Below, one piece after another: positions 11,093-57,200 of a DNA stretch of 64,000 nucleotides. The notes beneath the pieces were generated by a model. It was not told where the DNA came from and made no database searches. It worked only from the letters and a program-made list of their open reading frames with translations. The position numbers and the translations under genes are program-made. Every line of letters starts with the position of its first letter. The stretch's first letter is position 1. This DNA is from Actinostola sp. cb2023 (lineage: Eukaryota > Cnidaria > Anthozoa > Actiniaria > Actinostolidae): contig JAUJYZ010001308.1 in the NCBI GenBank assembly GCA_033675265.1, positions 1 through 64,000 of the forward strand, written 5' to 3'.

Positions 11093-11253
11093 CACTGGCT
11101 TGTGCACAGTAAATGTAAAAAACAATGTTTAATACTCATCATTAAAACCTGTCAAAATAAACTACCTTTTCTTGTAAGAATGAGAAAGATACTAAACTAT
11201 CTCTTAAGAAGCCCTTTTCACATATTGCATCCTGGATTTTTCTGGCCTTATCA

Positions 11254-11408: not shown

Positions 11409-11411
11409 AGT

Positions 11412-11581
11412 ATACAGTTGATGAACCTCTACTAACAGCCAACTCTCTGTAGCGGCCAGCATTTCTTTTTTCGGCCACCAGCCAGATTTATTGTTATTGA
11501 AACCACTTCACAATGGCCACCTCTACACAACGGCCACAAAGGTTAGTCCCGAGGTGGCCATTGTAGAGAGGTTCGACTGTA
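11412..11581. mobile_element. MITE fused to the NSL1 3' end (left)
   Basis: The ends TACAGTTGATGAACCTCT and AGAGGTTCGACTGTA are inverted. The interior has paired ACGGCCAC/GTGGCC blocks. On the minus strand it supplies the last about 28 NSL1 codons, the stop at 11494 and AATAAA directly after it. Mirror copy 57439-57604. Confidence 0.85.
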
Positions 11582-14500
11582 CTTGTGTATCGGTCAGGAG
11601 TGCGTAACAATCTACTGGTTCTACGTGTACTAGGTCTTGGTGTTACAGACTTGATTTTACCAAATAGAACAGCATCAGTTTCACTGGCTTCCATTCCTTG
11701 GTGAGTCGAGATGACTTGATGAAGACCTTCAACTTTATCTTGTAAACCAGGAAATGTCTGTGGTTGAAACATGGGAGATATAATCTACATTGTATAACTG
11801 AGTGGTAGTAATTACCGGTAGGTACATTGGCAGTATAACTAAGTGCTATTTATCCTTATTAATAATAATAATTCCTTCAAAACGCATTAACCGAACTCTC
11901 AATGCTTTTTTACAATGTGTGAGGACTGTTGTTTTACCTTAGACAGCCTTGCTTGCTCTTCAATGACATCTTGCAGTCTTTGAATGTATTCGGCTTTGTC
12001 TGTAGAAAATTGAGAATCTATAATCAGCTAATGCAATTGTTGACTGTACAATGATTCATACCATAGAATCCCACTATCTTGACCTCTGTTGTCTCAAACT
12101 CCCTGCTAATCCCATATGCATACATATATACACCTATTTCAATAAACGTTGATCATGGACGATCTGAAATGGATGATCTGAGAACGAGACAAATTGTGGG
12201 TACGAGCTGCAGTTTTTAAATTTACATCACAAATCTCATAATAAATTTTGACACTGACAATTACATACTGAATTACTATAAACCACCCACAATTCCTCTG
12301 TCTCAGATCATCCATTTCAGATCATCCATGATCAATGTTTATTGAAATAGGTGTATATGCATATCCCTTGGATTTGAACACCTACATGTACACTGAAGGA
12401 CTTGGACCTCATTATATCAAACCCCTTCTATCTTGAACTATTTGTCTTGTACTGTATGTTGAGTGTTCTATACACATACGTACGTTGTTTGTTTTCTAAT
12501 TGACTGTGTTGTATTGTTTGAGTGTTCTATACATGTACTTTGTTTGTTTTCTACATGACTGTGTTGTATTGTTTGAGTGTTCTATACATGTACTTTGTTT
12601 GTTTTCTACATGACTGTGTTGTATTGTTTGAGTGTTCTATACATGTACCTTGTTTGTTTTCTACATGACTGTGTTGTATTGTTTGAGTGTTCTATACATG
12701 TACCTTGTTTGTTTTCTACATGACTGTGTTGTATTGTTGTATTGTTTGAGTGTTCTATACATGTACTTTGTATGTTTTCTACATGACTGTGTTGTATTGT
12801 TGTATTGTTTGAGTGTTCTATACATGTACCTTGTTTGTTTTCTACATGACTGTGTTGTATTGTTGTATTGTTTGAGTGTTCTATACATGTACTTTGTATG
12901 TTTTCTACATGACTGTGTTGTATTGTTGTATTGTTTGAGTGTTCTATACATGTACTTTGTTTGTTTTCTACATGACTGTGTTGTATTGTTGTATTGTTTG
13001 AGTGTTCTATACATGTACTTTGTTTGTTTTCTACATGACTGTGTTGTATTGTTGTATTGTTTGAGTGTTCTATACATGTACTTTGTTTGTTTTCTACATG
13101 ACTGTGTTGTATTGTTGTATTGTTTGAGTGTTCTATACATGTACCTTGTTTGTTTTCTACATGACTGTGTTGTATTGTTGTATTGTTTGAGTGTTCTATA
13201 CATGTACTTTGTTTGTTTTCTACATGACTGTGTTGTATTGTTGTATTGTTTGAGTGTTCTATACATGTACTTTGTATGTTTTCTACATGACTGTGTTGTA
13301 TTGTTGTATTGTTTGAGTGTTCTATACATGTACTTTGTATGTTTTCTACATGACTGTGTTGTATTGTTGTATTGTTTGAGTGTTCTATACATGTACCTTG
13401 TTTGTTTTCTACATGACTGTGTTGTATTGTTGTATTGTTTGAGTGTTCTATACATGTACCTTGTTTGTTTTCTACATGACTGTGTTGTATTGTTGTATTG
13501 TTTGAGTGTTCTATACATGTACCTTGTTTGTTTTCTACATGACTGTGTTGTATTGTTGTATTGTTTGAGTGTTCTATACATGTACTTTGTTTGTTTTCTA
13601 CATGACTGTGTTGTATTGTTGTATTGTTTGAGTGTTCTATACATGTACTTTGTATGTTTTCTACATGACTGTGTTGTATTGTTGTATTGTTTGAGTGTTC
13701 TATACATGTACTTTGTTTGTTTTCTACATGACTGTGTTGTATTGTTGTATTGTTTGAGTGTTCTATACATGTACTTTGTTTGTTTTCTACATGACTGTGT
13801 TGTATTGTTTGAGTGTTCTATACATGTACTTTGTATGTTTTCTACATGACTGTGTTGTATTGTTGTATTGTTTGAGTGTTCTATACATGTACCTTGTTTG
13901 TTTTCTACATGACTGTGTTGTATTGTTTGAGTGTTCTATACATGTACCTTGTTTGTTTTCTACATGACTGTGTTGTATTGTTGTATTGTTTGAGTGTTCT
14001 ATACATGTACTTTGTATGTTTTCTACATGACTGTGTTGTATTGTTGTATTGTTTGAGTGTTCTATACATGTACCTTGTTTGTTTTCTACATGACTGTGTT
14101 GTATTGTTGTATTGTTTGAGTGTTCTATACATGTACTTTGTATGTTTTCTACATGACTGTGTTGTATTGTTGTATTGTTTGAGTGTTCTATACATGTACT
14201 TTGTTTGTTTTCTACATGACTGTGTTGTATTGTTGTATTGTTTGAGTGTTCTATACATGTACTTTGTTTGTTTTCTACATGACTGTGTTGTATTGTTGTA
14301 TTGTTTGAGTGTTCTATACATGTACTTTGTTTGTTTTCTACATGACTGTGTTGTATTGTTGTATTGTTTGAGTGTTCTATACATGTACCTTGTTTGTTTT
14401 CTACATGACTGTGTTGTATTGTTGTATTGTTTGAGTGTTCTATACATGTACTTTGTTTGTTTTCTACATGACTGTGTTGTATTGTTGTATTGTTTGAGTG

Positions 14501-17500
14501 TTCTATACATGTACTTTGTATGTTTTCTACATGACTGTGTTGTATTGTTGTATTGTTTGAGTGTTCTATACATGTACTTTGTATGTTTTCTACATGACTG
14601 TGTTGTATTGTTGTATTGTTTGAGTGTTCTATACATGTACCTTGTTTGTTTTCTACATGACTGTGTTGTATTGTTGTATTGTTTGAGTGTTCTATACATG
14701 TACCTTGTTTGTTTTCTACATGACTGTGTTGTATTGTTGTATTGTTTGAGTGTTCTATACATGTACCTTGTTTGTTTTCTACATGACTGTGTTGTATTGT
14801 TGTATTGTTTGAGTGTTCTATACATGTACTTTGTTTGTTTTCTACATGACTGTGTTGTATTGTTGTATTGTTTGAGTGTTCTATACATGTACTTTGTATG
14901 TTTTCTACATGACTGTGTTGTATTGTTGTATTGTTTGAGTGTTCTATACATGTACTTTGTTTGTTTTCTACATGACTGTGTTGTATTGTTGTATTGTTTG
15001 AGTGTTCTATACATGTACTTTGTTTGTTTTCTACATGACTGTGTTGTATTGTTTGAGTGTTCTATACATGTACTTTGTATGTTTTCTACATGACTGTGTT
15101 GTATTGTTGTATTGTTTGAGTGTTCTATACATGTACTTTGTTTGTTTTCTACATGACTGTGTTGTATTGTTTGAGTGTTCTATACATGTACTTTGTTTGT
15201 TTTCTACATGACTGTGTTGTATTGTTTGAGTGTTCTATACATGTACTTTGTATGTTTTCTACATGACTGTGTTGTATTGTTGTATTGTTTGAGTGTTCTA
15301 TACATGTACCTTGTTTGTTTTCTACATGACTGTGTTGTATTGTTGTATTGTTTGAGTGTTCTATACATGTACTTTGTTTGTTTTCTACATGACTGTGTTG
15401 TATTGTTTGAGTGTTCTATACATGTACTTTGTATGTTTTCTACATGACTGTGTTGTATTGTTGTATTGTTTGAGTGTTCTATACATGTACTTTGTTTGTT
15501 TTCTACATGACTGTGTTGTATTGTTGTATTGTTTGAGTGTTCTATACATGTACTTTGTTTGTTTTCTACATGACTGTGTTGTATTGTTGTATTGTTTGAG
15601 TGTTCTATACATGTACTTTGTTTGTTTTCTACATGACTGTGTTGTATTGTTGTATTGTTTGAGTGTTCTATACATGTACTTTGTTTGTTTTCTACATGAC
15701 TGTGTTGTATTGTTGTATTGTTTGAGTGTTCTATACATGTACCTTGTTTGTTTTCTACATGACTGTGTTGTATTGTTGTATTGTTTGAGTGTTCTATACA
15801 TGTACTTTGTTTGTTTTCTACATGACTGTGTTGTATTGTTGTATTGTTTGAGTGTTCTATACATGTACCTTGTTTGTTTTCTACATGACTGTGTTGTATT
15901 GTTGTATTGTTTGAGTGTTCTATACATGTACTTTGTTTGTTTTCTACATGACTGTGTTGTATTGTTGTATTGTTTGAGTGTTCTATACATGTACTTTGTA
16001 TGTTTTCTACATGACTGTGTTGTATTGTTGTATTGTTTGAGTGTTCTATACATGTACTTTGTTTGTTTTCTACATGACTGTGTTGTATTGTTGTATTGTT
16101 TGAGTGTTCTATACATGTACTTTGTATGTTTTCTACATGACTGTGTTGTATTGTTGTATTGTTTGAGTGTTCTATACATGTACTTTGTTTGTTTTCTACA
16201 TGACTGTGTTGTATTGTTGTATTGTTTGAGTGTTCTATACATGTACTTTGTTTGTTTTCTACATGACTGTGTTGTATTGTTGTATTGTTTGAGTGTTCTA
16301 TACATGTACTTTGTTTGTTTTCTACATGACTGTGTTGTATTGTTGTATTGTTTGAGTGTTCTATACATGTACTTTGTTTGTTTTCTACATGACTGTGTTG
16401 TATTGTTGTATTGTTTGAGTGTTCTATACATGTACTTTGTTTGTTTTCTACATGACTGTGTTGTATTGTTGTATTGTTTGAGTGTTCTATACATGTACTT
16501 TGTATGTTTTCTACATGACTGTGTTGTATTGTTGTATTGTTTGAGTGTTCTATACATGTACTTTGTTTGTTTTCTACATGACTGTGTTGTATTGTTGTAT
16601 TGTTTGAGTGTTCTATACATGTACTTTGTTTGTTTTCTACATGACTGTGTTGTATTGTTGTATTGTTTGAGTGTTCTATACATGTACTTTGTTTGTTTTC
16701 TACATGACTGTGTTGTATTGTTGTATTGTTTGAGTGTTCTATACATGTACCTTGTTTGTTTTCTACATGACTGTGTTGTATTGTTTGAGTGTTCTATACA
16801 TGTACTTTGTTTGTTTTCTACATGACTGTGTTGTATTGTTTGTATTGTTTGAGTGTTCTATACATGTACCTTGTTTGTTTTCTACATGACTGTGTTGTAT
16901 TGTTTGAGTGTTCTATACATGTACCTTGTTTGTTTTCTACATGACTGTGTTGTATTGTTGTATTGTTTGAGTGTTCTATACATGTACTTTGTTTGTTTTC
17001 TACATGACTGTGTTGTATTGTTGTATTGTTTGAGTGTTCTATACATGTACTTTGTTTGTTTTCTACATGACTGTGTTGTATTGTTGTATTGTTTGAGTGT
17101 TCTATACATGTACTTTGTATGTTTTCTACATGACTGTGTTGTATTGTTGTATTGTTTGAGTGTTCTATACATGTACCTTGTTTGTTTTCTACATGACTGT
17201 GTTGTATTGTTGTATTGTTTGAGTGTTCTATACATGTACCTTGTTTGTTTTCTACATGACTGTGTTGTATTGTTGTATTGTTTGAGTGTTCTATACATGT
17301 ACTTTGTTTGTTTTCTACATGACTGTGTTGTATTGTTGTATGTTTGTTTGAGTGTTCTATACATGTACCTTGTTTGTTTTCTACATGACTGTGTTGTATT
17401 GTTGTATTGTTTGAGTGTTCTATACATGTACTTTGTTTGTTTTCTACATGACTGTGTTGTATTGTTGTATTGTTTGAGTGTTCTATACATGTACCTTGTT

Positions 17501-20500
17501 TGTTTTCTACATGACTGTGTTGTATTGTTGTATTGTTTGAGTGTTCTATACATGTACTTTGTATGTTTTCTACATGACTGTGTTGTATTGTTGTATTGTT
17601 TGAGTGTTCTATACATGTACCTTGTTTGTTTTCTACATGACTGTGTTGTATTGTTGTATTGTTTGAGTGTTCTATACATGTACTTTGTTTGTTTTCTACA
17701 TGACTGTGTTGTATTGTTTGAGTGTTCTATACATGTACTTTGTTTGTTTTCTACATGACTGTGTTGTATTGTTGTATTGTTTGAGTGTTCTATACATGTA
17801 CTTTGTTTGTTTTCTACATGACTGTGTTGTATTGTTGTATTGTTTGAGTGTTCTATACATGTACCTTGTTTGTTTTCTACATGACTGTGTTGTATTGTTG
17901 TATTGTTTGAGTGTTCTATACATGTACCTTGTTTGTTTTCTACATGACTGTGTTGTATTGTTGTATTGTTTGAGTGTTCTATACATGTACTTTGTATGTT
18001 TTCTACATGACTGTGTTGTATTGTTGTATTGTTTGAGTGTTCTATACATGTACTTTGTATGTTTTCTACATGACTGTGTTGTATTGTTGTATTGTTTGAG
18101 TGTTCTATACATGTACCTTGTTTGTTTTCTACATGACTGTGTTGTATTGTTGTATTGTTTGAGTGTTCTATACATGTACCTTGTTTGTTTTCTACATGAC
18201 TGTGTTGTATTGTTGTATTGTTTGAGTGTTCTATACATGTACCTTGTTTGTTTTCTACATGACTGTGTTGTATTGTTGTATTGTTTGAGTGTTCTATACA
18301 TGTACCTTGTTTGTTTTCTACATGACTGTGTTGTATTGTTGTATTGTTTGAGTGTTCTATACATGTACTTTGTTTGTTTTCTACATGACTGTGTTGTATT
18401 GTTGTATTGTTTGAGTGTTCTATACATGTACCTTGTTTGTTTTCTACATGACTGTGTTGTATTGTTTGAGTGTTCTATACATGTACCTTGTTTGTTTTCT
18501 ACATGACTGTGTTGTATTGTTGTATTGTTTGAGTGTTCTATACATGTACTTTGTTTGTTTTCTACATGACTGTGTTGTATTGTTGTATTGTTTGAGTGTT
18601 CTATACATGTACTTTGTTTGTTTTCTACATGACTGTGTTGTATTGTTGTATTGTTTGAGTGTTCTATACATGTACTTTGTTTGTTTTCTACATGACTGTG
18701 TTGTATTGTTGTATTGTTTGAGTGTTCTATACATGTACCTTGTTTGTTTTCTACATGACTGTGTTGTATTGTTTGAGTGTTCTATACATGTACTTTGTAT
18801 GTTTTCTACATGACTGTGTTGTATTGTTGTATTGTTTGAGTGTTCTATACATGTACCTTGTTTGTTTTCTACATGACTGTGTTGTATTGTTGTATTGTTT
18901 GAGTGTTCTATACATGTACTTTGTTTGTTTTCTACATGACTGTGTTGTATTGTTGTATTGTTTGAGTGTTCTATACATGTACTTTGTTTGTTTTCTACAT
19001 GACTGTGTTGTATTGTTTGAGTGTTCTATACATGTACTTTGTTTGTTTTCTACATGACTGTGTTGTATTGTTGTATTGTTTGAGTGTTCTATACATGTAC
19101 TTTGTTTGTTTTCTACATGACTGTGTTGTATTGTTGTATTGTTTGAGTGTTCTATACATGTACTTTGTTTGTTTTCTACATGACTGTGTTGTATTGTTTG
19201 AGTGTTCTATACATGTACCTTGTTTGTTTTCTACATGACTGTGTTGTATTGTTGTATTGTTTGAGTGTTCTATACATGTACTTTGTTTGTTTTCTACATG
19301 ACTGTGTTGTATTGTTTGAGTGTTCTATACATGTACTTTGTTTGTTTTCTACATGACTGTGTTGTATTGTTTGAGTGTTCTATACATGTACTTTGTATGT
19401 TTTCTACATGACTGTGTTGTATTGTTGTATTGTTTGAGTGTTCTATACATGTACTTTGTTTGTTTTCTACATGACTGTGTTGTATTGTTTGAGTGTTCTA
19501 TACATGTACTTTGTTTGTTTTCTACATGACTGTGTTGTATTGTTGTATTGTTTGAGTGTTCTATACATGTACCTTGTTTGTTTTCTACATGACTGTGTTG
19601 TATTGTTTGAGTGTTCTATACATGTACCTTGTTTGTTTTCTACATGACTGTGTTGTATTGTTTGAGTGTTCTATACATGTACTTTGTTTGTTTTCTACAT
19701 GACTGTGTTGTATTGTTGTATTGTTTGAGTGTTCTATACATGTACCTTGTTTGTTTTCTACATGACTGTGTTGTATTGTTTGAGTGTTCTATACATGTAC
19801 TTTGTTTGTTTTCTACATGACTGTGTTGTATTGTTTGAGTGTTCTATACATGTACCTTGTTTGTTTTCTACATGACTGTGTTGTATTGTTTTGAGTGTTC
19901 TATACATGTACTTTGTATGTTTTCTACATGACTGTGTTGTATTGTTTGAGTGTTCTATACATGTACTTTGTTTGTTTTCTACATGACTGTGTTGTATTGT
20001 TTGTTTGAGTGTTCTATACATGTACCTTGTTTGTTTTCTACATGACTGTGTTGTATTGTTGTATTGTTTGAGTGTTCTATACATGTACCTTGTTTGTTTT
20101 CTACATGACTGTGTTGTATTGTTGTATTGTTTGAGTGTTCTATACATGTACTTTGTTTGTTTTCTACATGACTGTGTTGTATTGTTTGAGTGTTCTATAC
20201 ATGTACTTTGTATGTTTTCTACATGACTGTGTTGTATTGTTGTATTGTTTGAGTGTTCTATACATGTACTTTGTATGTTTTCTACATGACTGTGTTGTAT
20301 TGTTGTATTGTTTGAGTGTTCTATACATGTACCTTGTTTGTTTTCTACATGACTGTGTTGTATTGTTGTATTGTTTGAGTGTTCTATACATGTACTTTGT
20401 TTGTTTTCTACATGACTGTGTTGTATTGTTGTATTGTTTGAGTGTTCTATACATGTACTTTGTTTGTTTTCTACATGACTGTGTTGTATTGTTGTATTGT

Positions 20501-23500
20501 TTGAGTGTTCTATACATGTACCTTGTTTGTTTTCTACATGACTGTGTTGTATTGTTTGAGTGTTCTATACATGTACTTTGTTTGTTTTCTACATGACTGT
20601 GTTGTATTGTTGTATTGTTTGAGTGTTCTATACATGTACCTTGTTTGTTTTCTACATGACTGTGTTGTATTGTTGTATTGTTTGAGTGTTCTATACATGT
20701 ACTTTGTTTGTTTTCTACATGACTGTGTTGTATTGTTGTATTGTTTGAGTGTTCTATACATGTACTTTGTATGTTTTCTACATGACTGTGTTGTATTGTT
20801 GTATTGTTTTGAGTGTTCTATACATGTACTTTGTTTGTTTTCTACATGACTGTGTTGTATTGTTGTATTGTTTGAGTGTTCTATACATGTACTTTGTTTG
20901 TTTTCTACATGACTGTGTTGTATTGTTGTTGTATTGTTTGAGTGTTCTATACATGTACTTTGTTTGTTTTCTACATGACTGTGTTGTATTGTTGTATTGT
21001 TTGAGTGTTCTATACATGTACTTTGTATGTTTTCTACATGACTGTGTTGTATTGTTTGAGTGTTCTATACATGTACTTTGTATGTTTTCTACATGACTGT
21101 GTTGTATTGTTGTATTGTTTGAGTGTTCTATACATGTACTTTGTTTGTTTTCTACATGACTGTGTTGTATTGTTTGAGTGTTCTATACATGTACTTTGTT
21201 TTGTTTTCTACATGACTGTGTTGTATTGTTGTATTGTTTGAGTGTTCTATACATGTACCTTGTTTGTTTTCTACATGACTGTGTTGTATTGTTTGAGTGT
21301 TCTATACATGTACTTTGTATGTTTTCTACATGACTGTGTTGTATTGTTGTATTGTTTGAGTGTTCTATACATGTACCTTGTTTGTTTTCTACATGACTGT
21401 GTTGTATTGTTGTATTGTTTGAGTGTTCTATACATGTACTTTGTTTGTTTTCTACATGACTGTGTTGTATTGTTGTATTGTTTGAGTGTTCTATACATGT
21501 ACTTTGTTTGTTTTTCTACATGACTGTGTTGTATTGTTGTATTGTTTGAGTGTTCTATACATGTACTTTGTATGTTTTTCTACATGACTGTGTTGTATTG
21601 TTGTATTGTTTGAGTGTTCTATACATGTACTTTGTTTGTTTTCTACATGACTGTGTTGTATTGTTGTATTGTTTGAGTGTTCTATACATGTACTTTGTTT
21701 GTTTTCTACATGACTGTGTTGTATTGTTTGAGTGTTCTATACATGTACTTTGTATGTTTTCTACATGACTGTGTTGTATTGTTGTATTGTTTGAGTGTTC
21801 TATACATGTACTTTGTATGTGTTTTCTACATGACTGTGTTGTATTGTTGTATTGTTTGAGTGTTCTATACATGTACTTTGTTTGTTTTCTACATGACTGT
21901 GTTGTATTGTTGTATTGTTTGAGTGTTCTATACATGTACCTTGTTTGTTTTCTACATGACTGTGTTGTATTGTTTGAGTGTTCTATACATGTACTTTGTT
22001 TGTTTTCTACATGACTGTGTTGTATTGTTGTATTGTTTGAGTGTTCTATACATGTACCTTGTTTGTTTTCTACATGACTGTGTTGTATTGTTGTATTGTT
22101 TGAGTGTTCTATACATGTACTTTGTTGTTTTCTACATGACTGTGTTGTATTGTTGTATTGTTTGAGTGTTCTATACATGTACTTTGTATGTTTTCTACAT
22201 GACTGTGTTGTATTGTTTGAGTGTTCTATACATGTACCTTGTTTGTTTTCTACATGACTGTGTTGTATTGTTGTATTGTTTGAGTGTTCTATACATGTAC
22301 CTTGTTTGTTTTCTACATGACTGTGTTGTATTGTTGTATTGTTTGAGTGTTCTATACATGTACTTTGTATGTTTTCTACATGACTGTGTTGTATTGTTGT
22401 ATTGTTTGAGTGTTCTATACATGTACTTTGTTTGTTTTCTACATGACTGTGTTGTATTGTTTGAGTGTTCTATACATGTACTTTGTATGTTTTCTACATG
22501 ACTGTGTTGTATTGTTTGAGTGTTCTATACATGTACTTTGTATGTTTTCTACATGACTGTGTTGTATTGTTGTATTGTTTGAGTGTTCTATACATGTACC
22601 TTGTTTGTTTTCTACATGACTGTGTTGTATTGTTTGAGTGTTCTATACATGTACTTTGTATGTTTTCTACATGACTGTGTTGTATTGTTGTATTGTTTGA
22701 GTGTTCTATACATGTACCTTGTTTGTTTTCTACATGACTGTGTTGTATTGTTGTATTGTTTGAGTGTTCTATACATGTACTTTGTTTGTTTTCTACATGA
22801 CTGTGTTGTATTGTTGTATTGTTTGAGTGTTCTATACATGTACTTTGTATGTTTTCTACATGACTGTGTTGTATTGTTGTATTGTTTGAGTGTTCTATAC
22901 ATGTACCTTGTTTGTTTTCTACATGACTGTGTTGTATTGTTGTATTGTTTGAGTGTTCTATACATGTACTTTGTTTGTTTTCTACATGACTGTGTTGTAT
23001 TGTTGTATTGTTTGAGTGTTCTATACATGTACCTTGTTTGTTTTCTACATGACTGTGTTGTATTGTTGTATTGTTTGAGTGTTCTATACATGTACCTTGT
23101 TTGTTTTCTACATGACTGTGTTGTATTGTTGTATTGTTTGAGTGTTCTATACATGTACCTTGTTTGTTTTCTACATGACTGTGTTGTATTGTTTCACTCT
23201 TCTCTGCTGGGGAGTATGTTTCCTACAATGCAATTCAAAACCATGTGTCCACATCATAGTTACTAAATAAGTAGAACATGTAGCCATACATTTGTACTTA
23301 CTAATAACTCGACTTTGCATTGCAGTAAAGTTTTCATGGAATTGGTAATTATTGGTGGATATTTCTTGCGTTTTCCTGTGGTTTCCCTGATCAGATCTTC
23401 CAAGGATGACCACATGTCATTTACTTCTTTCAATCTTTCTTTATTGACTAATTCTGTTTTCAAATAAATTAAATACAGTAAACATCTTGTTTGTTGACTT

Positions 23501-24995
23501 TGATCAAGAACAACATTCTGTTCTAACAGCGAGAGGCACACGGCAAGTGCTCAGTCGTGCGGCCTCATGCAGCCTGGTCATGCGGCATTAATCGTGTATT
23601 AATAAAGTTATTGTATTGTATTGTATTGCACCTGTATTGCTAAACATGCATATCTATTCAAACATGAAAGCCACATGTGCTGGCTAGCGGTCGCGCACCA
23701 TGCTGCGGGGTGCCCCAGGCTATTGCAGGGTCATGTGGTGCAATACTTGCAGATCGTCGGGGATCTAAGCAAGTGTCTCCCTCGTTTTGTTTGAGCTTTT
23801 GCTCCCAACCCACCCTCCCTTTTGGTAAGTATGGTGTAGGTAAGTACTTTCCACTGACAGCCATCAGTGTGATGGGTGCCAGGTGGTGGACACCATACAA
23901 CAGCTGAATAAAATACCGTAGCCACCCACTTTCATTATGTGAGCTATGGTTACTTTACTCATGTATGCCATCTCACCTTGTACAGTATGTGCTGTTGTAA
24001 GTAAGCTGTGGTTACTTTACTCATGTACACCATCTCACCTTGTACAGTATGTGCTGTTGTAAGTAAGCTATGGTTACTTTACTCATGTACACCATCTCAC
24101 CTTGTACAGTACGTGCTGTTGTAAGTAAGCTATGGTTACTTTACTCATGTACACCATCTCACCTTGTACAGTATGTGCTGTTGTAAGTAAGCTATGGTTA
24201 CTTTACTCATGTACACCATCTCACCTTGTACAGTATGTGCTGTTGTAAGTAAGCTATGGTTACTTTACTCATGTACACCATCTCACCTTGTACAGTATGT
24301 GCTGTTGTAAGTAAGCTATGGTTACTTTACTCATGTACACCATCTCACCTTGTACAGTATGTGCTGTTGTAAGTAAGCTATGGTTACTTTACTCATGTAC
24401 ACCATCTCACCTTGTACAGTATGTGCTGTTGTAAGTAAGCTATGGTTACTTTACTCATGTACACCATCTCACCTTGTACAGTATGTGCTGTTGTAAGTAA
24501 GCTATGGTTACTTTACTCATGTACACCATCTCACCTTGTACAGTATGTGCTGTTGTTTCAGACTGTGTTTCTATGGGTTCATCTACCCATTCCTTCCCAC
24601 TGACAGACACATTAGATTTAACAGTCTCCTGAATAACATCCTTGTACAGCTGTTGACCATATTATACATTTATAGAGATATCACTATCAGACCGAGGTCT
24701 GTACAAAAAAGACTGAGGTCTGATATTTTCCTGTACTGATCGAGCATAAGTTTGTTTAAAATCACCGAGAAATCAACGACTACTTGCATGTCAACAAATC
24801 AAACACAATCCAATAATCTATAATCCAATAATCAACTGATAAACGAACCTCAAGAAATCTTTTCTCGAATGCTTGCGCCTTTTCAACACTCCATGACTTT
24901 GCTTCCACAATCTCACTAATTTCTCTCTTCAGTTTTTGGTGGATTCTCTGCACAATCGTTTGGTTTTCCACCCAAACTTTAGAATCGTCCGCCAT
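11494..24995 (-). CDS. NSL1: Mis12 complex kinetochore subunit NSL1 (left copy, 6 exons, about 11-kb intron 4)
   Basis: NSL1 is part of the Mis12 complex, which links centromeric chromatin to the Ndc80 microtubule-binding complex (family knowledge). Exons on the minus strand: 24995-24849, 24649-24535, 23522-23302, 23222-23159, 11999-11938, 11757-11494; splice phases agree throughout. Total is about 289-290 residues, against about 281 in human. Recognition rests on SNVSVSGKEWVDEP, which matches the family motif ending in G-x-x-W, and on the coiled-coil stretch SLEDLIRETTGKRKKYP followed by I-x-x-x-M-K-T-x-L-Q-C-K-V-E-L-L. A C-terminal basic stretch (TPRPSTRRTSRLLRTPDR) follows. The start is the first ATG of a divergent promoter (AAGATGGCGG context). 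The last about 28 residues, the stop and the AATAAA lie in a MITE. Introns 2 and 4 contain satellites seeded from the adjacent exon ends. Confidence 0.9.
12112..12366. mobile_element. MITE in NSL1 intron 4
   Basis: About 85-bp imperfect inverted ends (TATGCATA...CACCTATTTCAATAAAC, GATCATGGACGATCTGAAAT) over about 255 bp. Mirror copy about 56,650-56,905. Confidence 0.8.
12455..23192. repeat. 63/55-bp satellite, about 170 monomers, in NSL1 intron 4 (left)
   Basis: Monomers are 63 bp or, lacking 8 bp, 55 bp. Three variants recur: ACCTTGTTTG, ACTTTGTTTG and ACTTTGTATG after ATGT. Read on the minus strand, the monomer next to NSL1 exon 4 is the exon's own end (reading HSHVENKQ) plus the splice donor GTACATGTATAG, so the array is built from an exon-intron junction. 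Long ORFs on both strands are by-products of the 63-bp (multiple of 3) period. A block of 20 monomers (18 of 63 bp and 2 of 55 bp, 1,244 bp) starting near 12,632 is repeated directly at 13,876. Irregular monomers are commoner beyond about 19,800. Confidence 0.95.
23535..23935. other. GC-richer repeat-like block in NSL1 intron 2 (left)
   Basis: Contains AATAAAGTTATTG followed by (TATTG)n near 23,600-23,627, a common retroposon tail, then about 270 bp of GC-richer sequence with no gene I recognise. Mirror copy about 55,405-55,800. Confidence 0.4.
23942..24556. repeat. 62-bp satellite containing NSL1 exon 2 end and donor (left)
   Basis: About ten 62-bp monomers. On the minus strand each reads ACAACAGCACATACTGTACAAG then GTGAGATGG: the first part is the last 22 nt of NSL1 exon 2 and the second its splice donor. 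The segment TTACTTACAACAG just before also resembles an acceptor, so each monomer looks like a mini-exon with both splice signals. Confidence 0.93.
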
Positions 24996-37000: not shown

Positions 37001-39228
37001 ACCAGTGAAAGCACTGACGACCTGCAGCCAGAAAGTGAGACTGTAGCAAGAGCATTGACTACAGATTCTGAGACGATTGATTCTACTGCTGGAAGACGAC
37101 GGGGGACGATCAAGGAAAGGCGTGACTGATAAGGGTAAAACTACTACCAGTGAAAGCACTGACGACCCCGCTGCCAGAAAGTGAGACTGTAGCAACAGCA
37201 ATGTCTCCAGATGAAGAGACTGAGACGATGGATTCTACTGCTGGAAGACGACGATCACGATCACGGAAAGGTGTGGCTGATAAGGATAAAACTGCTACCA
37301 GTGAAAGCACTGATGACCCGCATCCAGAAAGTGAGACTGTAGCAACAGCAATGTCTACAGATGAAGAGTCTGAGACAATTGATTCTACTGCTGGAAGACG
37401 ACGAGGACGATCACGGAAAGGTGTGGCTGATAAGGGTAAAACTACTACCAGTGAAAGCACTGACGACCCACATCCAGAAAGTGAGACTGTAGCAAGAGCA
37501 ATGACTACAGATTCTGAGACGATTGATTCTACTGCTGGAAGACGACAGGGACGATCAGGGAAAGGTGTGACTGATAAGGATAAAACTACAACCAGTGAAA
37601 GCACTGACGACCCACAGCCAGAAAGTGAGACTGTAGCAAGAGCAATGACTACAGATTCTGAGACGATTGATTCTACTGCTGGAAGACGACGGGGACGATC
37701 AAGGAAAGGCGTGACTGATAAGGGTAAAACTACTACCAGTGAAAGCACTGATGACCCGCAGCCAGAAAGTGAGACTGTAGCAAGAGCAATGACTACAGAT
37801 TCTGAGACGATTGATTCTACTGCTGGAAGACGACAGGGACGATCAGGGAAAGGTGTGGCTGATAAGGATAAAACTACAACCAGTGAAAGCACTGACGACC
37901 CGCAGCCAGAAAGTGAGACTGTAGCAAGAGCAATGACTACAGATTCTGAGACGATTGATTCTACTGCTGGAAGACGACAGGGACGATCAAGGAAAGGCGT
38001 GACTGATAAGGGTAAAACTACTACCAGTGAAAGCACTGATGACCCGCAGCCAGAAAGTGAGACTGTAACAACAGCAATGTCTACAGATGAAGAGACTGAG
38101 ACGATTGATTCTACTGCTGGAAGACGACAGGGACGATCACGGAAAGGCATGACTGATAAGGATAAAACTACTACCAGTGAAAGCACTGACGACCCGCAGC
38201 CAGAAAGTGAGACTGTAGCAAGAGCAATGACTACAGATTCTGAGACGATTGATTCTACTGCTGGAAGACGACAGGGACGATCACGGAAAGGCATGACTGA
38301 TAAGGATAAAACTACTACCAGTGAAAGCACTGACGACCCGCAGCCAGAAAGTGAGACTGTAGCAAGAGCAATGACTACAGATTCTGAGACGATTGATTCT
38401 ACTGCTGGAAGACGACGAGGACGATCACGGAAAGGCATGACTGATAAGAATAAAACTGCTACCAGTGAAAGCACTGACGACCCGCAGCCAGAAAGTGAGA
38501 CTGTAGCAAGAGCAATGACTACAGATTCTGAGACGATTGATTCTACTGCTGGAAGACGACAGGGACGATCACGGAAAGGCGTGACTGAATAAGGATAAAA
38601 CTGCTACCAGTGAAAGCACTGACGACCCGCAGCCAGAAAGTGAGACTGTAGCAACAGCAATGTCCTACAGATGAAGAGACTGAGACGATTGATTCTACTG
38701 CTGGAAGACGACAGGGACGATCACGGAAAGGTGTGGCTGATAAGGATAAAACTACTACCAGTGAAAGCACTGACGACCCGTTACAGCCAGAAAGTGAGAC
38801 TGAGATTTTTTTACTGCTTCCATTGATAGAACAGTGTTTACAGATGAAAAGCCTGCGACAACTGATTCTAACCGCTGGAAGACGACGTTCACAAACTCAG
38901 AGAGGTAAAGCCCGCGAGGGGACCAGGAAAAAAGCAGATCAAAAGTGAAGAGTCATCGCCAGCTGTTGGCAAAAGAAGACTGACAAGAAGTAGGAAAATA
39001 TCCGATACCGACGATGGCGCGGGGGAGGACCGTCGAGTATGGACGAGGACGAAGACAGTTCAGCATCCAGAGCAAAACGGTCGAGGAGATCATTGTCGAA
39101 CAAAAGCGAAGACACACATATCACTTGCAGCAAATCCATTAGAAACTGCTGATGTACAAGAAACGAACAAAACACCTACAGTAGCAATCAAACCGCCGCG
39201 CTCTACGAAAAAGAAAATAGTGCTATGA
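25074..39228 (+). CDS. Unrecognised long protein: two Cys-rich modules, Pro-rich tracts, acidic and basic repeats (left copy)
   Basis: I do not recognise the family. Exons read: 25074-25082, 25165-25223, 27554-27667, 28006-28102, one ending 29547 (acceptor unclear), 29656-29775, 30045-30072, 30175-30642, 31195 to about 31240 (donor inside a satellite), 33153-33862, 33933-34372, 35589-39228. Two similar modules are visible: CPRC...VVFVIVDELFPMGDMPE...FLCRGFC...GAGFNVNW and CPYC...VKYIIVFADGMRDGDLP...FQCQVC..GFNLDW. After them come Pro-rich segments (PPPRVPPPR type, HPHHPHHRPPPGPP), an acidic repeat VGEDEVTQRTVTDDTDDN about 6 times, then about 18 copies of a 40-residue unit with GRRRGRSRKG basic patches. 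A nuclear, disordered protein of roughly 1,900 residues is inferred. Single-base insertions break the frame near 33550, 37098, 37166, 38589 and 38664; most are absent from the right arm. TGA at 39226-39228. Confidence 0.75.
25638..26936. mobile_element. 1.3-kb non-autonomous DNA transposon in intron 2 of the unknown gene
   Basis: The left end has AGCCGTGCCTTTGCATCGAA...AAGGGTGGACTAACATA; the reverse complement of the same string, with small gaps, forms the right end. The interior has a CRE-like palindrome cluster (GATGACGTCA near 26,690-26,723) and no transposase ORF. Mirror copy about 52,266-53,567. Confidence 0.8.
27783..27928. mobile_element. MITE with GCGCTTATTTG/GCACTTATT blocks
   Basis: ACCGTAATGATTTGAATAAG at the left pairs imperfectly with CTTATTCTAATTATTACAGT at the right. 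The interior is a run of G-rich GGGGC/GCTTATT units with a G10 tract. Lies in intron 3 of the unknown gene. Mirror copy about 51,273-51,419. Confidence 0.7.
28420..29405. repeat. 56-64-bp satellite in intron 4 of the unknown gene (left)
   Basis: About 16 monomers with core CACCCAACACTCATCTCACT followed by GGTGGTGAC or AGTGGTGAC. Monomers are pyrimidine-rich, and the CACTAG variants look like splice acceptors. The exon that follows has no clear acceptor of its own. Confidence 0.93.
29895..29985 (-). mobile_element. Possible retroposon 3' tail with (TAAG)n
   Basis: A (TAAG) run is followed by GACTTTATTTAACAAGCGTA and AAACTTGTGGCCCTTAGC. A related block (CTTTATTTCACGAG, AACTTATGGCCCTCC) follows an (AAT)n run at 5,856-5,955. 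Both look like 3' ends of one LINE or SINE family inserted in reverse. Mirror copies near 49,215-49,310 and 62,940-63,040. Confidence 0.45.
30804..31110. repeat. Near-perfect hairpin, about 150-bp arms, intron 8 of the unknown gene
   Basis: Centre at 30952 (TTTTACTAT A ATAGTAAAA). The arms stay paired out to about 30,804 and 31,110 with almost no mismatch over the inner 130 bp. Mirror copy about 48,105-48,412. Confidence 0.9.
31228..31800. repeat. 29-bp satellite at exon 9 of the unknown gene (left)
   Basis: About 19 monomers TATGATTGTACCAT/GG then GTGTTATATGCCAG. The first part equals the end of exon 9 (reading GDMIVPG) and the GTGTTA matches the likely donor, so this array too spans an exon-intron junction. 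The first monomer keeps an extra CTAGA. Confidence 0.9.
32148..32670. mobile_element. Tigger/pogo-like MITE
   Basis: CAGTGGAATCACGATTTTTC at the left and AAAATGGGATTCCACTG at the right, flanked by TA on both sides, as in the Tc1/mariner superfamily. Internal TTCGAAAAATTGGGAGTTCG blocks repeat. No intact transposase. Lies in an intron of the unknown gene. Mirror copy about 46,536-47,065. Confidence 0.8.
34534..35488. repeat. 18-bp satellite TATGCCTTCCAGAATAAC, about 53 copies, intron 11 of the unknown gene (left)
   Basis: Perfect or near-perfect 18-bp units with TTC/GTC exchange. All frames stay open because 18 is a multiple of 3, which produces spurious ORFs (AFQNNY, MPSRIT, VILEGI). It lies between the donor at 34373 and the acceptor before 35589. 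Every unit contains CCTTCCAG, an acceptor-like string. Confidence 0.93.
35627..35957 (+). repeat. 54-bp coding repeat, acidic 18-residue unit (left)
   Basis: Six in-frame copies encoding VGEDEVTQRTVTDDTDDN variants at the start of the last exon of the unknown gene. Mirror copy 43243-43574, where one unit has an extra T (near 43330) that breaks the frame. Confidence 0.92.
36580..38800 (+). repeat. About 120-bp coding minisatellite, 40-residue Ser/Thr-acidic/basic unit (left)
   Basis: About 18 copies encoding SETVARAMTTDSETIDSTAG, then GRRRGRSRKGVTDK, then GKTTTSESTDDPQPE. Two length classes occur (TDSETID and STDEESETID). The basic patch resembles an AT-hook but has Ser where the core Pro (RGRP) would be. 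Mirror copy about 40,370-42,640. Confidence 0.92.
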
Positions 39229-39950
39229 GACACTTAAAGACTTCGTTAGTTACTAGTTGTGCATTTATAGACTAATCACTTCGATAATCATTGTGTTTTT
39301 ATTGAGTGAATTCTTATGTCCAAGTCATGTAAGAAAGAACTAGCTAGAAGCCCTTCAGTTTCCCGCCATCCATATCTTATTTCATTCAAAATAATGTAAC
39401 GCATTGTTTGTTGAGTTGATCATATTGTGTGTAGACATGTTGTCGGTGTAAATTGTTTTAATACTGGCAGCCTCGAAATGTCTGTACAATTGTGGTGAAC
39501 TGCGTTAAATAGACTTTTTTCCTGTATTCTGTTTCCACTGTCCACCAACAGATAGTACCGGGTCGAGAGTGGGGTAGAAATAAAGTACATGTATCTTCTA
39601 CCCCACTCTCGGACCCGGTACTTATTGTTCGTTGGGACAGTGGCACCGAATACAGAAAAAGTCTATTAACGCCAAGTCACCACAATTGTTACAGACATTT
39701 CGAGGCTGCATGCATATTAAAACATTTACACCGAAAACATGTCCTAACAAATATGATCAACTCAACAGCGTTACATTATTTGAATGAAATAAGATATGAT
39801 GGCGGGACACTGAAAGGATTCTAGCTGTTCTTTATTACATGGCCTTGGACATAAGAATTCACTCAATAAAAAAACACAAGAGTATTCGAAGTGATTAATC
39901 TATAAATGCACAACTAGTAACTACGAAGTCTTTTAAGTGTCCTCATCCGC
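39229..39950. other. Palindrome centre: 3' flank of the unknown gene and its mirror
   Basis: About 350 bp of non-coding flank on each side of the 16-nt spacer 39580-39595. The spacer region contains AATAAA (39579-39584). The two sides differ by an indel every 10-20 bases, far more than arm sequence further out. Confidence 0.8.
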
Positions 39951-42900
39951 ACTATTTTCTTTTTCGTTATAGCGCGCGGTTTAGATTGCTACTGGAGGTG
40001 TTTTGTTCGTTTCTTGTACATCAGCAGTTTCTAATGGATTTGCTGCAGTGATATGTGTGTCTTCGCTTTGTTCGACAAGGGATCTCCTCGACCGTTTTGC
40101 TCTGGATGCTGAACTGTCTTCGTCCTCGTCCATACTCGGACGGTTCCTCCCCCGCGCCATCGTCGGTATCGGATATTTTCCTACTTTTTGTCAGTCTTCT
40201 TTTGCACCAACAGCTGACGATGACTCCTTCACTTTTGATCTGCTTTTTCCTGGTTCCCTCGCGGCTTTACCTCTTGAGTTTTGGTGAACGTCGTCTTTCA
40301 GCGGTAGAACTCAGTTTTCGCAGGCTTTTCCATCTGTAAACACTGTTCTATCAATGGAAGCAGTGCTCAGTCTCACTTTTCTGGCTGCGGGTTCGTCAGG
40401 GCTTTCAATGGTAGTAAGGTTCTATCCCTTATCAGTCCACACCTGTCCCGTGATAGTGCCTGCAGTCTTCCAGCCAGTAGAATCAATCGTCTCAGTATCT
40501 TCATCTGTAGACATTGCTGTTGCTAACAGTCTCACTTTGCTCGGCTGCGGGTTCTTCAGTGCTTTCACTGGTAGTAGTTTATCCTTATCAGTCACGCCTT
40601 TCCGTGATCGTCCCTGTCGTCTTCCAGCAGTAGAATCAATCGTCAGCTCATAATCTGTAGTTCATTGCTCTTGCTACAGTCCTCACTTTTCTGGCTGCGG
40701 GTCGTCAGTGCTTTCACTGGTAGCAGTTTTATTCTTATCAGTCATGCCTTTCCCGTGATCGTCCCTCGTCGTCTCCAGCAGTAGAATCAATCGTCTCAGA
40801 ATCTGTAGTCATTGCTCTTGCTACAGTCTCACTTTCTGGCTGCGGGTCGTCAGTGCTTTCATGGTAGTAGTTTTATCCTTTATCAGTCATGGCCTTTCCG
40901 TGATCGTCCTGTCGTCTTCCAGCAGTAGAATCAATCGTCTCAGAATCTGTAGTCATTGCTCTTGCTACAGTCTCACTTTCTGGCTGCGGGTCGTCAGTGC
41001 TTTCACTGGTAGTAGTTTTATCCTTATCAGTCATGCCTTTCCGTGATCGTCCCTGTCGTCTTCCAGCAGTAGAATCAATCGTCTCAGTCTCTTCATCTGT
41101 AGACATTGCTGTTGTTACAGTCTCACTTTCTGGCTGCGGGTCATCAGTGCTTTCACTGGTAGTAGTTTTAACCCTTATCAGTCACGCCTTTCCTTGATCG
41201 TCCCTGTCGTCTTCCAGCAGTAGAAATCAATCGTCTCAGAATCTGTAGTCATTGCTCTTGCTACAGTCTCACTTTCTGGCTGCGGGTCGTCAGTGCTTTC
41301 ACTGGTTGTAGTTTTATCCTTTATCAGCCACACCTTTCCCTGATCGTCCCTGTCGTCTTCCAGCAGTAGAATCAATCGTCTCAGAATCTGTAGTCATTGC
41401 TCTTGCTACAGTCTCACTTTCTGGCTGCGGGTCATCAGTGCTTTCACTGGTAGTAGTTTTTACCCTTATCAGTCACGCCTTTCCTTGATCGTCCCCGTCG
41501 TCTTCCAGCAGTAGAATCAATCGTCTCAGAATCTGTAGTCATTGCTCTTGCTACAGTCTCACTTTCTGGCTGTGGGTCGTCAGTGCTTTCACTGGTTGTA
41601 GTTTTATCCTTATCAGTCACACCTTTCCCTGATCGTCCCTGTCGTCTTCCAGCAGTAGAATCAATCGTCTCAGAATCTGTAGTCATTGCTCTTGCTACAG
41701 TCTCACTTTCTGGATGTGGGTCGTCAGTGCTTTCACTGGTAGTAGTTTTACCCTTATCAGCCACACCTTTCCGTGATCGTCCTCGTCGTCTTCCAGCAGT
41801 AGAATCAATTGTCTCAGACTCTTCATCTGTAGACATTGCTGTTGCTACAGTCTCACTTTCTGGATGCGGGTCATCAGTGCTTTCACTGGTAGCAGTTTTA
41901 TCCTTATCAGCCACACCTTTCCGTGATCGTGATCGTCGTCTTCCAGCAGTAGAATCCATCGTCTCAGTCTCTTCATCTGGAGACATTGCTGTTGCTACAG
42001 TCTCACTTTCTGGCAGCGGGTCGTCAGTGCTTTCACTGGTAGTAGTTTTTACCCTTATCAGTCACGCCTTTCCTTGATCGTCCCCGTCGTCTTCCAGCAG
42101 TAGAATCAATCGTCTCAGAATCTGTAGTCAATGCTCTTGCTACAGTCTCACTTTCTGGCTGCAGGTCGTCAGTGCTTTCACTGGTTGTAGTTTTATCCTT
42201 ATCAGTCACGCCCTTTCCCTGATCGTCCCTGTCGTCTTCCAGCAATAGAATCAATCGTCTCAGAATCTGTAGTCATTGCTCTTGCTACAGTCTCACTTTC
42301 TGGATGTGGGTCGTCAGTGCTTTCAACTGGTAGTAGTTTTACCCTTATCAGCCACACCTTTCCGTGATCGTCCTCGTCGTCTTCCAGCAGTAGAATCAAA
42401 TTGTCTCAGACTCTTCATCTGTAGACATTGCTGTTGCTACAGTCTCACTTTTCTGGCTGCGGGTCGTCAGTGCTTTCACTGGTAGTAGTTTTACCCTTAT
42501 CAGCCACAAACCTTTCCGTGATCGTCCTCGTCGTCTTCTAGCAGTAGAATCAATCGTCTGAGACTCTTCATCTGTAGACATTGCTGTTGCTACAGTCTCA
42601 CTTTCTGGCTGCGGGTCATCAGAGGGTACAGCCACTCCTTTCTGTTGCCGACCTCGTCGTTTTTGAGAGGAGTCTACTGCTGCCTCCAGACAACAGCTCT
42701 GAGGTATCCTCGTCAGCTCCCTTTCGTGATCTTGTAGTTCTTGTCTCCTTCTTTTATCGAATTCGTTTGTCTCTTTGTGTCCTCTATGTTCTGGTCATTA
42801 TCTGATGTGTTGGCGTTATGTGGTGGTGATGACACTGTGGCTGTTACTTCTATTTCCAATACACTAGATGGTAACTCTAACACCACATTTTTCCTTGCCG

Positions 42901-54211: not shown

Positions 54212-57200
54212 ATGGCGGACGATTCTAAAGTTTGGGTGGAAAACCAAACGATTGTGCAGAGAATCCACCAAAAACTGAAGAGAGAAATTAGTGAGATTGT
54301 GGAAGCAAAGTCATGGAGTGTTGAAAAGGCGCAAGCATTCGAGAAAATACTTCTTGAGGTTCGTTTATCAGTTGATTATTGGATTATAGATTATTGGATT
54401 GTGTTTGATTTGTTGACATGCAAGTAGTCGTTGATTTCCCGGTGATTTTTAAACAACTTATGCTCGATCAGTACAGGAAAATATCAGACCTCAGTCTTTT
54501 TTGTACAGACCTCGGTCTGATAGTGATATCTCTATAAATGTATAATATGGTCAACAGCTGTACAAGGATGTTATTCAGGAGACTGTTAAATCTAATGTGT
54601 CTGTCAGTGGGAAGGAATGGGTAGATGAACCCATAGAAACGCAGTCTGAAACAACAGCACATACTGTACAAGGTGAGATGGTGTACATGAGTAAAGTAAC
54701 CATAGCTTACTTACAACAGCACATACTGTACAAGGTGAGATGGTGTACATGAGTAAAGTAACCATAGCTTACTTACAACAGCACATACTGTACAAGGTGA
54801 GATGGTGTACATGAGTAAAGTAACCATAGCTTACTTACAACAGCACATACTGTACAAGGTGAGATGGCATACATGAGTAAAGTAACCATAGCTTACTTAC
54901 AACAGCACATACTGTACAAGGTGAGATGGTGTACATGAGTAAAGTAACCATAGCTTACTTACAACAGCACATACTGTACAAGGTGAGATGGTGTACATGA
55001 GTAAAGTAACCATAGCTTACTTACAACAGCACATACTGTACAAGGTGAGATGGTGTACATGAGTAAAGTAACCATAGCTTACTTACAACAGCACATACTG
55101 TACAAGGTGAGATGGTGTACATGAGTAAAGTAACCATAGCTTACTTACAACAGCACATACTGTACAAGGTGAGATGGCATACATGAGTAAAGTAACCATA
55201 GCTTACTTTATAACAACAGCACATACTGTACAAGGTGAGATGGTGTACATGAGTAAAGTAACCATAGCTTACTTACAACAGCACATACTGTACAAGGTGA
55301 GATGGTGTACATGAGTAAAGTAACCATAGCTTACTTACAACAGCACATACTGTACAAGGTGAGATGGCATACATGAGTAAAGTAACCATAGCTCACATAA
55401 TGAAAGTGGGTGGCTACGGTATTTTATTCAGCTGTTGTATGGTGTCCACCACCTGGCATCCATCACACTGACGGCTGTCAGTGGAAAGTACTTACCTAAC
55501 ACCATACTTACCAAAAGGGAGGGTGGGTTGGGAGCAAAAGCTCAAACAAAACGAGGGAGACACTTGCTTAGATCCCCGACGATCTGCAAGTATTGCACCA
55601 CATGACCCTGCAATAGCCTGGGGCACCCCGCAGCATGGTGCGCGACCGCTGGCCAGCACATGCGGCTTTCATGTTTGAGTAGATATGCATGTTTAGCAAT
55701 ACAGGTGCAATACAATACAATAACTTTATTTATACACGATTAATGCCGCATGACCAGGCTGCATGAGGCCGCACGACTGAGTACTTGCCGTGTGCCTCTC
55801 GCTGTTAGAACAGAATGTTGTTCTTGATCAAAGTCAACAAACAAGATGTTTACTGTATTTAATTTATTTGAAAACAGAATCAGTCAATAAAGAAAGATTG
55901 AAAGAAGTAAATGACATGTGGTCATCCTTGGAAGATCTGATCAGGGAAACCACAGGAAAACGCAAGAAATATCCACCAATAATTACCAATTCCATGAAAA
56001 CTATACTGCAATGCAAAGTCGAGTTATTAGTAAGTACAAATGTATGGCTACATGTTCTACTTATTTAGTAACTATGATGTGGACACATGGTTTTGAATTG
56101 CATTGTAGGAAACATACTCCCCAGCAGAGAAGAGTGAAACAATACAACACAGTCATGTAGAAAACAAACAAGGTACATGTATAGAACACTCAAACAATAC
56201 AACAATACAACACAGTCATGTAGAAAACAAACAAGGTACATGTATAGAACACTCAAACAATACAACAATACAACACAGTCATGTAGAAAACAAACAAGGT
56301 ACATGTATAGAACACTCAAACAATACAACAATACAACACAGTCATGTAGAAAACAAACAAGGTACATGTATAGAACACTCAAACAATACAACAATACAAC
56401 TGTCATGTAGAAAACAAACAAGGTACATGTATAGAACACTCAAACAATACAACACAGTCATGTAGAAAACAAACAAAGTACATGTATAGAACACTCAAAC
56501 AATACAACACAGTCAATTAGAAAACAAACAATGTACGTATGTGTATAGAACACTCAACATACAGTACAAGACAAATAGTTCAAGATAGAAGGGGTTTGAT
56601 ATAACGAGGTCCAAGTCCTTCAGTGTACATGTAGGTGTTCAAATCCAAGGGATATGCATATACACCTATTTCAATAAACATTGATCATGGATGATCTGAA
56701 ATGGATGATCTGAGACAGAGAGGAATTGTGGGTGGTTTATAGTAATTCAGTATGTAATTGTCAGTGTCAAAATTTATTATGAGATTTGTGATGTAAATTT
56801 AAAAACTGCAGCTCGTACCTACAATTCGTCTCGGTCTCAGATCATCCATTTCAGATCGTCCATGATCAACGTTTATTGAAATAGGTGTATATATGTATGC
56901 ATATGGGATTAGCAGGGAGTTTGAGACAACAGAGGTCAAGATAGTGGGATTCTATGGTATGAATCATTGTACAGTCAACAATTGCATTAGCTGATTATAG
57001 ATTCTCAATTTTCTACAGACAAAGCCGAATACATTCAAAGACTGCAAGATGTCATTGAAGAGCAAGCAAGGCTGTCTAAGGTAAAACAATAGTCCTCACA
57101 CATTGTAAAAAAGCATTGAGAGTTCGGTTAATGCGTTTTGAAGGAATTATTATTATTAATAAGGATAAATAGCACTTAGTTATACTGCCAATGTACCTAC

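Follow-up and report, generated by a model that had tools for sequence, protein, structure and literature searches.

Known arrays at exon-donor junctions

Tandem repeats that copy an exon end together with its splice site have been described in birds as 'exon stuttering'. In chicken, 236 introns carry exon-derived repeats, 190 of them on dot chromosomes, with an exon part of 20-187 bp (median 36), 1-44 copies (median 4) and spans of up to 23,555 bp (Hron et al., 2026; PMC12954441). Here we describe an architecture of this kind in Actinostola sp. cb2023, a sea anemone from hydrothermal vents (PMC10803348), in a gene whose protein sequence identifies it as NSL1, a Mis12 complex subunit. The locus lies within the first 64,000 bases (the window) of contig C1576 (649,493 bp) in an assembly of 424,152,321 bases. 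The reading we favor, with a probability of roughly two in three, is that the array at exon 4 is a locus-bound variable number tandem repeat (VNTR) formed by local tandem duplication, and that the donor closest to exon 4 (donor 1) would normally be joined to exon 5 while all other donors serve as decoys.

As in the avian introns, an exon edge and its splice site are repeated through the neighboring intron, with the copied part at the exon border. The exon fragments repeated with their own donors are 36 nucleotides for exon 4 and 22 for exon 2, against an avian median of 36, and intron 4 is filled by such locally derived repeats. Intron length varies between avian alleles, much as it would here between versions with 174 and six donors if these are indeed allelic. 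The avian cases are tied by their authors to GC-rich DNA and G-quadruplexes (G4), and involve mostly dot microchromosomes and imperfect units. In contrast, the NSL1 arrays occur in an anthozoan, consist of near-identical units with up to 174 donors, and have GC contents of 31% (exon-4 array) and 39% (exon-2 array), compared with 40% for the NSL1 coding sequence and 37% for the window. The GC-rich setting, which the avian authors report as an association and not as a strict criterion, is not found at either array.

Human ABCA7 offers a second parallel, since the VNTR in its intron 18 (25-bp unit, copy number from about 12 to 427, alleles of up to 10,678 bp) likewise starts with the exon's own GT and differs greatly in length between alleles (PMC5954066). 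Use of the donor one unit downstream is seen in ABCA7, where two frameshifting events are reported at 14 and 2% (retention of one unit being the 2% event by order of the text) and exon 19 skipping increases with array length. Moreover, the ABCA7 unit shifts the reading frame, while the NSL1 unit holds 36 exon nucleotides, stays in frame, and is accompanied by a second exon with its own array. Units of the IFI6 (6-16) minisatellite serve as splice donors (Turri et al., 1995, as cited in PMC4526556), and there donor use is documented rather than read from sequence. At NSL1, as in donor VNTRs such as those of ABCA7 and IFI6, the canonical donor lies within the first unit of the tandem array. In human paralogues, internal tandem repeats at the borders of exons and introns account for 27 intron modifications and alter splicing between paralogues or alleles, but they create new introns within exons (PMC2812944), whereas at NSL1 an existing intron has been lengthened. 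Similarly, tandemly duplicated AGGT segments carry splice signals and lead to intron gain (PMC4974935), whereas NSL1 has acquired no new intron or acceptor.

Given these precedents, the initial annotation went too far in calling a donor-filled intron very unusual. What is new at this locus is the phylum, the AT-rich setting, the near identity of the units, the copy number, and a series of 2, 6 and 174 donors. Searches for 'sequence stuttering' and 'exon stuttering' returned only the avian study, and no cnidarian case was found among the listed titles and abstracts of open-licence papers (10 of 450 and 9 of 9), which is weak evidence of absence.

The exon-4 donor array of NSL1

The window carries NSL1 twice, on the minus strand in a left arm and on the plus strand in a right arm (Table 1). 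In the left copy, exon 4 (23222-23159, minus) reads ...SETIQHSHVENKQ and is followed by the donor CAAG/GTACAT, which continues as GTACATG. These positions and sequences bear out the initial annotation, as does exon 5 at 11999. That annotation had also described the exon tail and donor as recurring every 63 or 55 bp over 10.7 kb, and we count 174 exact copies of the donor core GTACATGTATAGAACACTC (first GT at 23158, last at 12538) plus one degenerate unit. Tandem Repeats Finder (TRF) reports 171.1 copies with a score of 18,393, and the ~10.7-kb array makes up most of an intron of 11,159 bp. The 55-bp unit comprises the last 36 nucleotides of exon 4 and 19 intron nucleotides, and the 63-bp form has eight additional nucleotides as an internal insertion. 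Donors are spaced by 63 bp in 127 of 173 intervals and by 55 bp in 35; the remaining 11 span 56-66 bp, seven of them off by one base.

The copies are close to identical. When the sequence upstream of donor 1 is compared with that of the 173 other donors, 42 match over 35 nucleotides and 14 over 36 (56 in total), and the other 117 show no upstream match because they carry A at position -1. The picture of an intron filled with donor copies is accurate as far as it goes, except that 117 of the 174 donors are of the weaker CAAA/GT form. Across the 162 units that measure 55 or 63 bp, substitutions are restricted to two sites, the A-to-G change at donor position -1 (55 of 162) and one A-to-T change (36 of 162), and T with G is combined in none of 173 units. 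A chance origin of the array is excluded.

A search of the whole genome for the exon-4 unit at no more than two mismatches, which leaves more diverged copies aside, yielded 183 matches (12 forward, 171 reverse). All of them fall within NSL1 loci: 170 reverse and six forward in the window, six forward in contig C856 of the same assembly, and one reverse at a paralogue on contig C1470. The unit is therefore a locus-bound VNTR, and the term 'satellite' used earlier is too broad; a dispersed satellite can be ruled out within this mismatch limit.

The paralogue (C1470, 672,913 bp; locus 592000-601999) is 88% identical over 321 bp, with 87-96% identity across the individual aligned pieces, and its residues fit the public protein QZH41_019931. 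Its exon 4 is followed by a 63-type unit with the second donor and by a third unit, of the 55 type, that has no donor; the flank beyond resembles that of the window. This locus accordingly has two exon-4 donors. The duplication and the 8-bp insertion are common to both genes and are therefore best taken as older than the paralogue split. The exon-2 junction has a comparable array. There the exon ends ...ACTGTACAAG/GTGAGATGG, and 22 exon nucleotides plus 40 intron nucleotides recur every 62 bp, with 12 donors in the right arm, 10 in the left arm, 12 in C856 and 12 exact donors at the C1470 paralogue. Both arrays are best read as predating the NSL1 duplication, with the exon-4 array probably reaching six and 174 donors later.

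The identity of the gene rests on the Mis14/NSL1 family PF08641, which QZH41_020613 (E 5.8e-06) and QZH41_019931 (E 6.5e-10) both match above its cut-off, and on human NSL1 chains, recovered at E 2e-05 to 3e-05 with a three-sequence profile and at 0.009-0.012 with a single sequence. In human NSL1, the part aligned to the junction of exons 4 and 5 is poorly conserved. A homologous exon-4 tail, shorter by one residue, is present in Exaiptasia NSL1 (KSDTIETSRPTCQ/DES versus KSETIQHSHVENKQ/DKAE in Actinostola), and the exon-2 tail is common to both anemones (TTAHTVQ/TTAKPVQ). Because a three-protein NSL1 profile matched nothing beyond the five proteins already known, this conservation is documented by one outgroup. 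A 242-residue frame of exon 4 and array had QZH41_020613 as its sole protein match among 4,256 candidates.

The homologous tail in Exaiptasia, unchanged in the Actinostola paralogue, indicates that the exon most likely preceded the repeat, as the earlier proposal of an array seeded from the exon 4/intron 4 junction implies. The opposite order, in which the exon end was taken from a pre-existing repeat, could also account for an exon tail and unit that are identical over 35-36 nucleotides. However, this order is very improbable given the exon-4 tail in Exaiptasia (albeit a single outgroup protein), the shared exon-2 tail, and an exon copy that does not have the 8-bp insertion of the 127 63-bp units.

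Short and long versions on a folded contig

The right arm carries a much shorter exon-4 array, and so does C856 (368,417 bp), which matches the locus over the stretch that starts at its base 347,339 and runs to the contig end. Each has six exact exon-4 donors with the -1 bases GGGGGA. Intron 4 thus measures 846 bp in the right arm and 11,159 bp in the left, with 6 and 174 donors in one assembly of one individual. Neither this short version nor the exon-2 array, the paralogue or the inverted repeat itself was part of the initial annotation.

The two arms are joined head to head. Unique 20-mers pair positions 4897-39576 with 39577-64000 in inverted order, and the pairing extends until contig base 68,875 faces window base 1, with seven mismatches in 4,909 columns. 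Substitutions between the arms are absent from 27014-36600 (0 in 7,208 bp compared) and from the bins covering 35,400-38,400, after which a sharply bounded zone with 7-17% disagreement extends to the hinge. There is one substitution in 25780-27015 and two in 3,154 bp of 4897-8269. Ten near-identical stretches (9,968 bp) contain 29 indels, of which 22 involve a single type of base and lie beside the same base. Arrays inside the zone without substitutions have equal copy numbers on the left and right (64-bp, 15.5/15.5; 29-bp, 19.3/19.3; 18-bp, 53.2/53.2; 54-bp, 6.0/6.0; about 144-bp, 15.2/15.2), whereas those in the variable zone do not (37-bp, 25.6/19.5; 67-bp, 20.0/19.0; 62-bp, 9.9/11.9; 63-bp, 171.1/6.1).

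Contig C856 continues past the hinge without turning back, as evident by the fact that its bases 318,000-347,338 match the window in only ten short pieces (none longer than 229 bp, identities of 79-92%, E of at most 1e-5) that resemble dispersed repeats. Since C856 passes straight through the hinge, the fold-back in C1576 is almost certainly an assembly artifact. It would take a true palindrome, with two head-to-head NSL1 copies whose arrays differ in length, to read the contig literally over its first 68,875 bp. We consider such a chromosome hardly credible in view of the uninterrupted C856, the 7-17% disagreement confined to sharply bounded stretches at the hinge, the 7,208 bp without substitutions, and the predominance of one-base-type indels. 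Moreover, missed SMRTbell adapters are a known source of palindromic reads (PMC6218980), and such an adapter in the 20-kb PacBio library is the simplest reading of the cause; against it, no systematic fold-back is reported in three PacBio samples (HiFi, MAS-Seq and Iso-Seq; PMC12870357). The inner 13.8 kb of both arms would then derive from one molecule, with the left arm continuing on the other haplotype.

Because bases 1-39576 of C1576 mirror 39577-68875, the NSL1 locus has been annotated twice on this contig, as QZH41_020612 (a partial protein with left-arm residues that ends after exon 3) and QZH41_020613 (right-arm residues). Long-read fold-back contigs can therefore make two haplotypes look like two genes.

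A three-way comparison of the arms with C856, in four single-copy segments within 9264-25784, assigns 28 substitutions to the left arm only, three to the right arm only and none to C856 only. This count excludes the segments 25780-27015 (two C856-only, one left-only), 6640-8269 (just 130 positions at the C856 end, with 15 C856-only) and 5993-6420 (no C856 match); four more segments within 27014-34551 have no differences. Between the arms, 9264-25784 has 32 substitutions in 4,044 bp (~0.8%), 21 of them transitions, which fits the published heterozygosity of 0.9% (PMC10803348) and makes the left arm look like an allele; the paralogue, by comparison, has only 88% identity (321 bp). Among the 710 coding nucleotides compared (54212-57431 versus the left exons), seven codons differ, six by replacement and one silently. 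We infer that the six-donor and 174-donor versions are alleles of one individual.

The figure of 174 copies is a count in an assembly of PacBio reads made with LoRDEC, DBG2OLC, Racon and Pilon (PMC10803348). That noisy-read assembly has inflated or scrambled the array, and that the true long version is shorter, seems to us quite unlikely, although the pipeline, the position of the array on the fold-back arm, and the 11 of 173 units that are neither 55 nor 63 bp (seven differing by one base) all leave room for it. One 20-unit block is exactly duplicated and may be such a stutter; with units coded by length and the two variable sites, the longest repeat in 500 shuffles was 10 units. However, apart from this block the order of unit types includes no repeat of 10 or more, unlike what a loop in the assembler would produce, the 20-kb library gave 112 Gb of long reads (stated coverage, 280x) that could span the array, and flanking substitutions separate the long haplotype from the six-donor one.

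Origin of the array and choice of donor

The locus-bound VNTR would have begun with local tandem duplication of a 55-bp piece across the exon 4/intron 4 junction (36 exon plus 19 intron nucleotides) and grown as units slipped or exchanged unequally, with the 20-unit block duplication among these events. The exon-4 acceptor and the first donor would define the 64-nucleotide exon, with donor 1 normally spliced to exon 5. The remaining donors are predicted decoys, in units that offer no pyrimidine-tract acceptor and, in two thirds of cases, have a weakened -1 base. A minor leak to donor 2 would add residues in frame, 21 per step, and leakage as far as donor 9 in the long version or donor 4 in the short one would place them where NSL1 is poorly conserved. 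If ABCA7 is a guide, the main cost of the long version may be skipping of exon 5 (62 nucleotides, a frameshift) or reduced expression, and not use of a wrong donor.

How the correct donor is chosen was posed as a question in the initial annotation, and it is a real one, because the local context of the donor recurs in each copy and local sequence therefore cannot single out donor 1 among those with G at -1. Donor 1 differs from the other G donors in its distance from the exon-4 acceptor and in transcription order. Internal pseudo-exons or premature transcript ends are not expected, since the longest pyrimidine run in the 20 nucleotides before each AG of the 63-bp unit is two and AATAAA is absent across the exon-4 array. 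Modeled pairing with U1, for which we assumed the sequence of the U1 end, is strongest for the exon 2 donor at -9.6 kcal/mol, followed by the G (-5.6) and A (-3.0) forms of the exon-4 donor.

Several points weigh against donor 1 use in a genuine long array. The use of donor 1 is what we infer from the sequence, and its U1 pairing is weak relative to that of exon 2, which makes it no stronger than the other G donors. The public right-arm model QZH41_020613 (56109-56298) joins donor 2 to exon 5 and so includes 21 extra residues. This is probably a prediction choice made without RNA, as the annotation is described as resting on homology and gene prediction, with RNA not mentioned (PMC10803348). 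The long array is present on one arm only, and that arm belongs to the artifactual fold-back; the arms hardly differ outside 9264-25784, so haplotype switching must be assumed. In addition, the near-perfect uniformity of the units may in part be a product of correction by LoRDEC and Pilon.

A possible, though considerably less probable, alternative is that the array is a working set of donors, several of them used routinely as in IFI6, where downstream repeat units act as donors, so that the length of the protein linker changes in multiples of 21 residues. In its favor, the 63-bp unit spans 21 codons and is open in the exon frame (GTCIEHSNNTTIQHSHVENKQ), in-frame open products result from donors 1-9 of the long version (9 of 174) and 1-4 of the short one (4 of 6), and QZH41_020613 uses donor 2. 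However, an open unit is unsurprising, as shuffling its intron part leaves the unit open in 52% of cases, and selection for an open unit is rejected on the same figure. The exon-2 array of the right arm gives an open product from donor 1 only (1 of 12), which indicates that reading frame is not what maintains repeated donors there. In the paralogue model donor 1 is used, and the weak A at -1 is present in 117 of the 174 donors.

Two structural candidates for a driver of repeat formation were rejected, namely RNA structure (exon 4 plus the first units, 246 nucleotides; z +0.69) and DNA hairpins of two units (z +0.42 and +0.45 for either strand). A shared GTACATG motif behind the arrays is suggestive at most: it occurs in three of 10 consensus units tested, and outside arrays it is seen five times against 3.3 expected, with TACATGTA seen four times against 0.7. 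A rough placement test gives 0.008 for both NSL1 arrays beginning within 60 nucleotides upstream of a donor, but it is post hoc and carries little weight.

The locus extends a phenomenon tied in birds to GC-rich DNA to an AT-rich cnidarian gene without notable folding potential. With versions of 2, 6 and ~174 near-identical donors before one acceptor, a single genome provides a natural experiment on 5' splice site choice. A broader proposal, which we regard as speculative and unlikely to hold as it stands, is that exon stuttering is a general, composition-independent mutational process that repeatedly seeds tandem arrays at exon-donor junctions of animal genes, and that the in-frame donor ladder of NSL1 yields a spectrum of kinetochore-protein isoforms. 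If this were true, exon stuttering would be no by-product of GC-rich bird microchromosomes, and a unit length that is a multiple of three would have turned one donor into a ladder of in-frame donors across NSL1 alleles.

Table 1. Coordinates of NSL1 exons, donor-seeded arrays and the hinge in the window.
Feature	Position	Strand	Remarks
Long exon-4 array, left arm	12455..23194	-	55/63-bp units seeded from exon 4/intron 4 junction; 174 exact donors and degenerate distal unit
NSL1 exon 1, left arm	24849..24995	-	
NSL1 exon 2, left arm	24535..24649	-	last 22 nt are first unit of second array
NSL1 exon 3, left arm	23302..23453	-	
NSL1 exon 4, left arm	23159..23222	-	64 nt; phase 0 start, phase 1 end; last 36 nt are first array unit
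NSL1 exon 5, left arm	11938..11999	-	62 nt; acceptor partner for array donors
NSL1 exon 6, left arm (compared part)	11588..11757	-	
Exon-2 array, left arm	23942..24556	-	second donor-seeded array; 62-bp units, 10 donors AAG/GTGAGATGG
Fold-back hinge (about 39576)	38400..40372	.	arms disagree by 7-17% substitutions per 250-bp bin; almost certainly an artifactual join
NSL1 exon 1, right arm	54212..54358	+	
NSL1 exon 2, right arm	54558..54672	+	
Exon-2 array, right arm	54651..55393	+	second donor-seeded array; 62-bp units, 12 donors
NSL1 exon 3, right arm	55878..56029	+	
NSL1 exon 4, right arm	56109..56172	+	
Short exon-4 array, right arm	56137..56557	+	6 exact donors (first GT 56173) and degenerate unit
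NSL1 exon 5, right arm	57019..57080	+	
NSL1 exon 6, right arm	57262..57522	+	open to a stop

Some further features of the locus deserve mention. Thirteen masked intervals of tandem arrays together make up 19,607 of the 39,576 bp in the left arm, or about half. Open reading frames at 33210-38592 (plus strand) contain repeated units 18, 54 and about 144 bp long (48 codons for the longest), the last repeats lying beside the hinge; five frames scanned against Pfam gave no family, apart from a six-residue match in one. A 648-bp contig deposited in ENA (P0005) encodes a 147-residue protein fragment in which residues of both NSL1 paralogues are mixed. The end of exon 6 in the right arm (57432-57522) reads TVEPLYNGHLG..., a tail that is missing from the paralogue protein and that we take to resemble repeat-derived tails.

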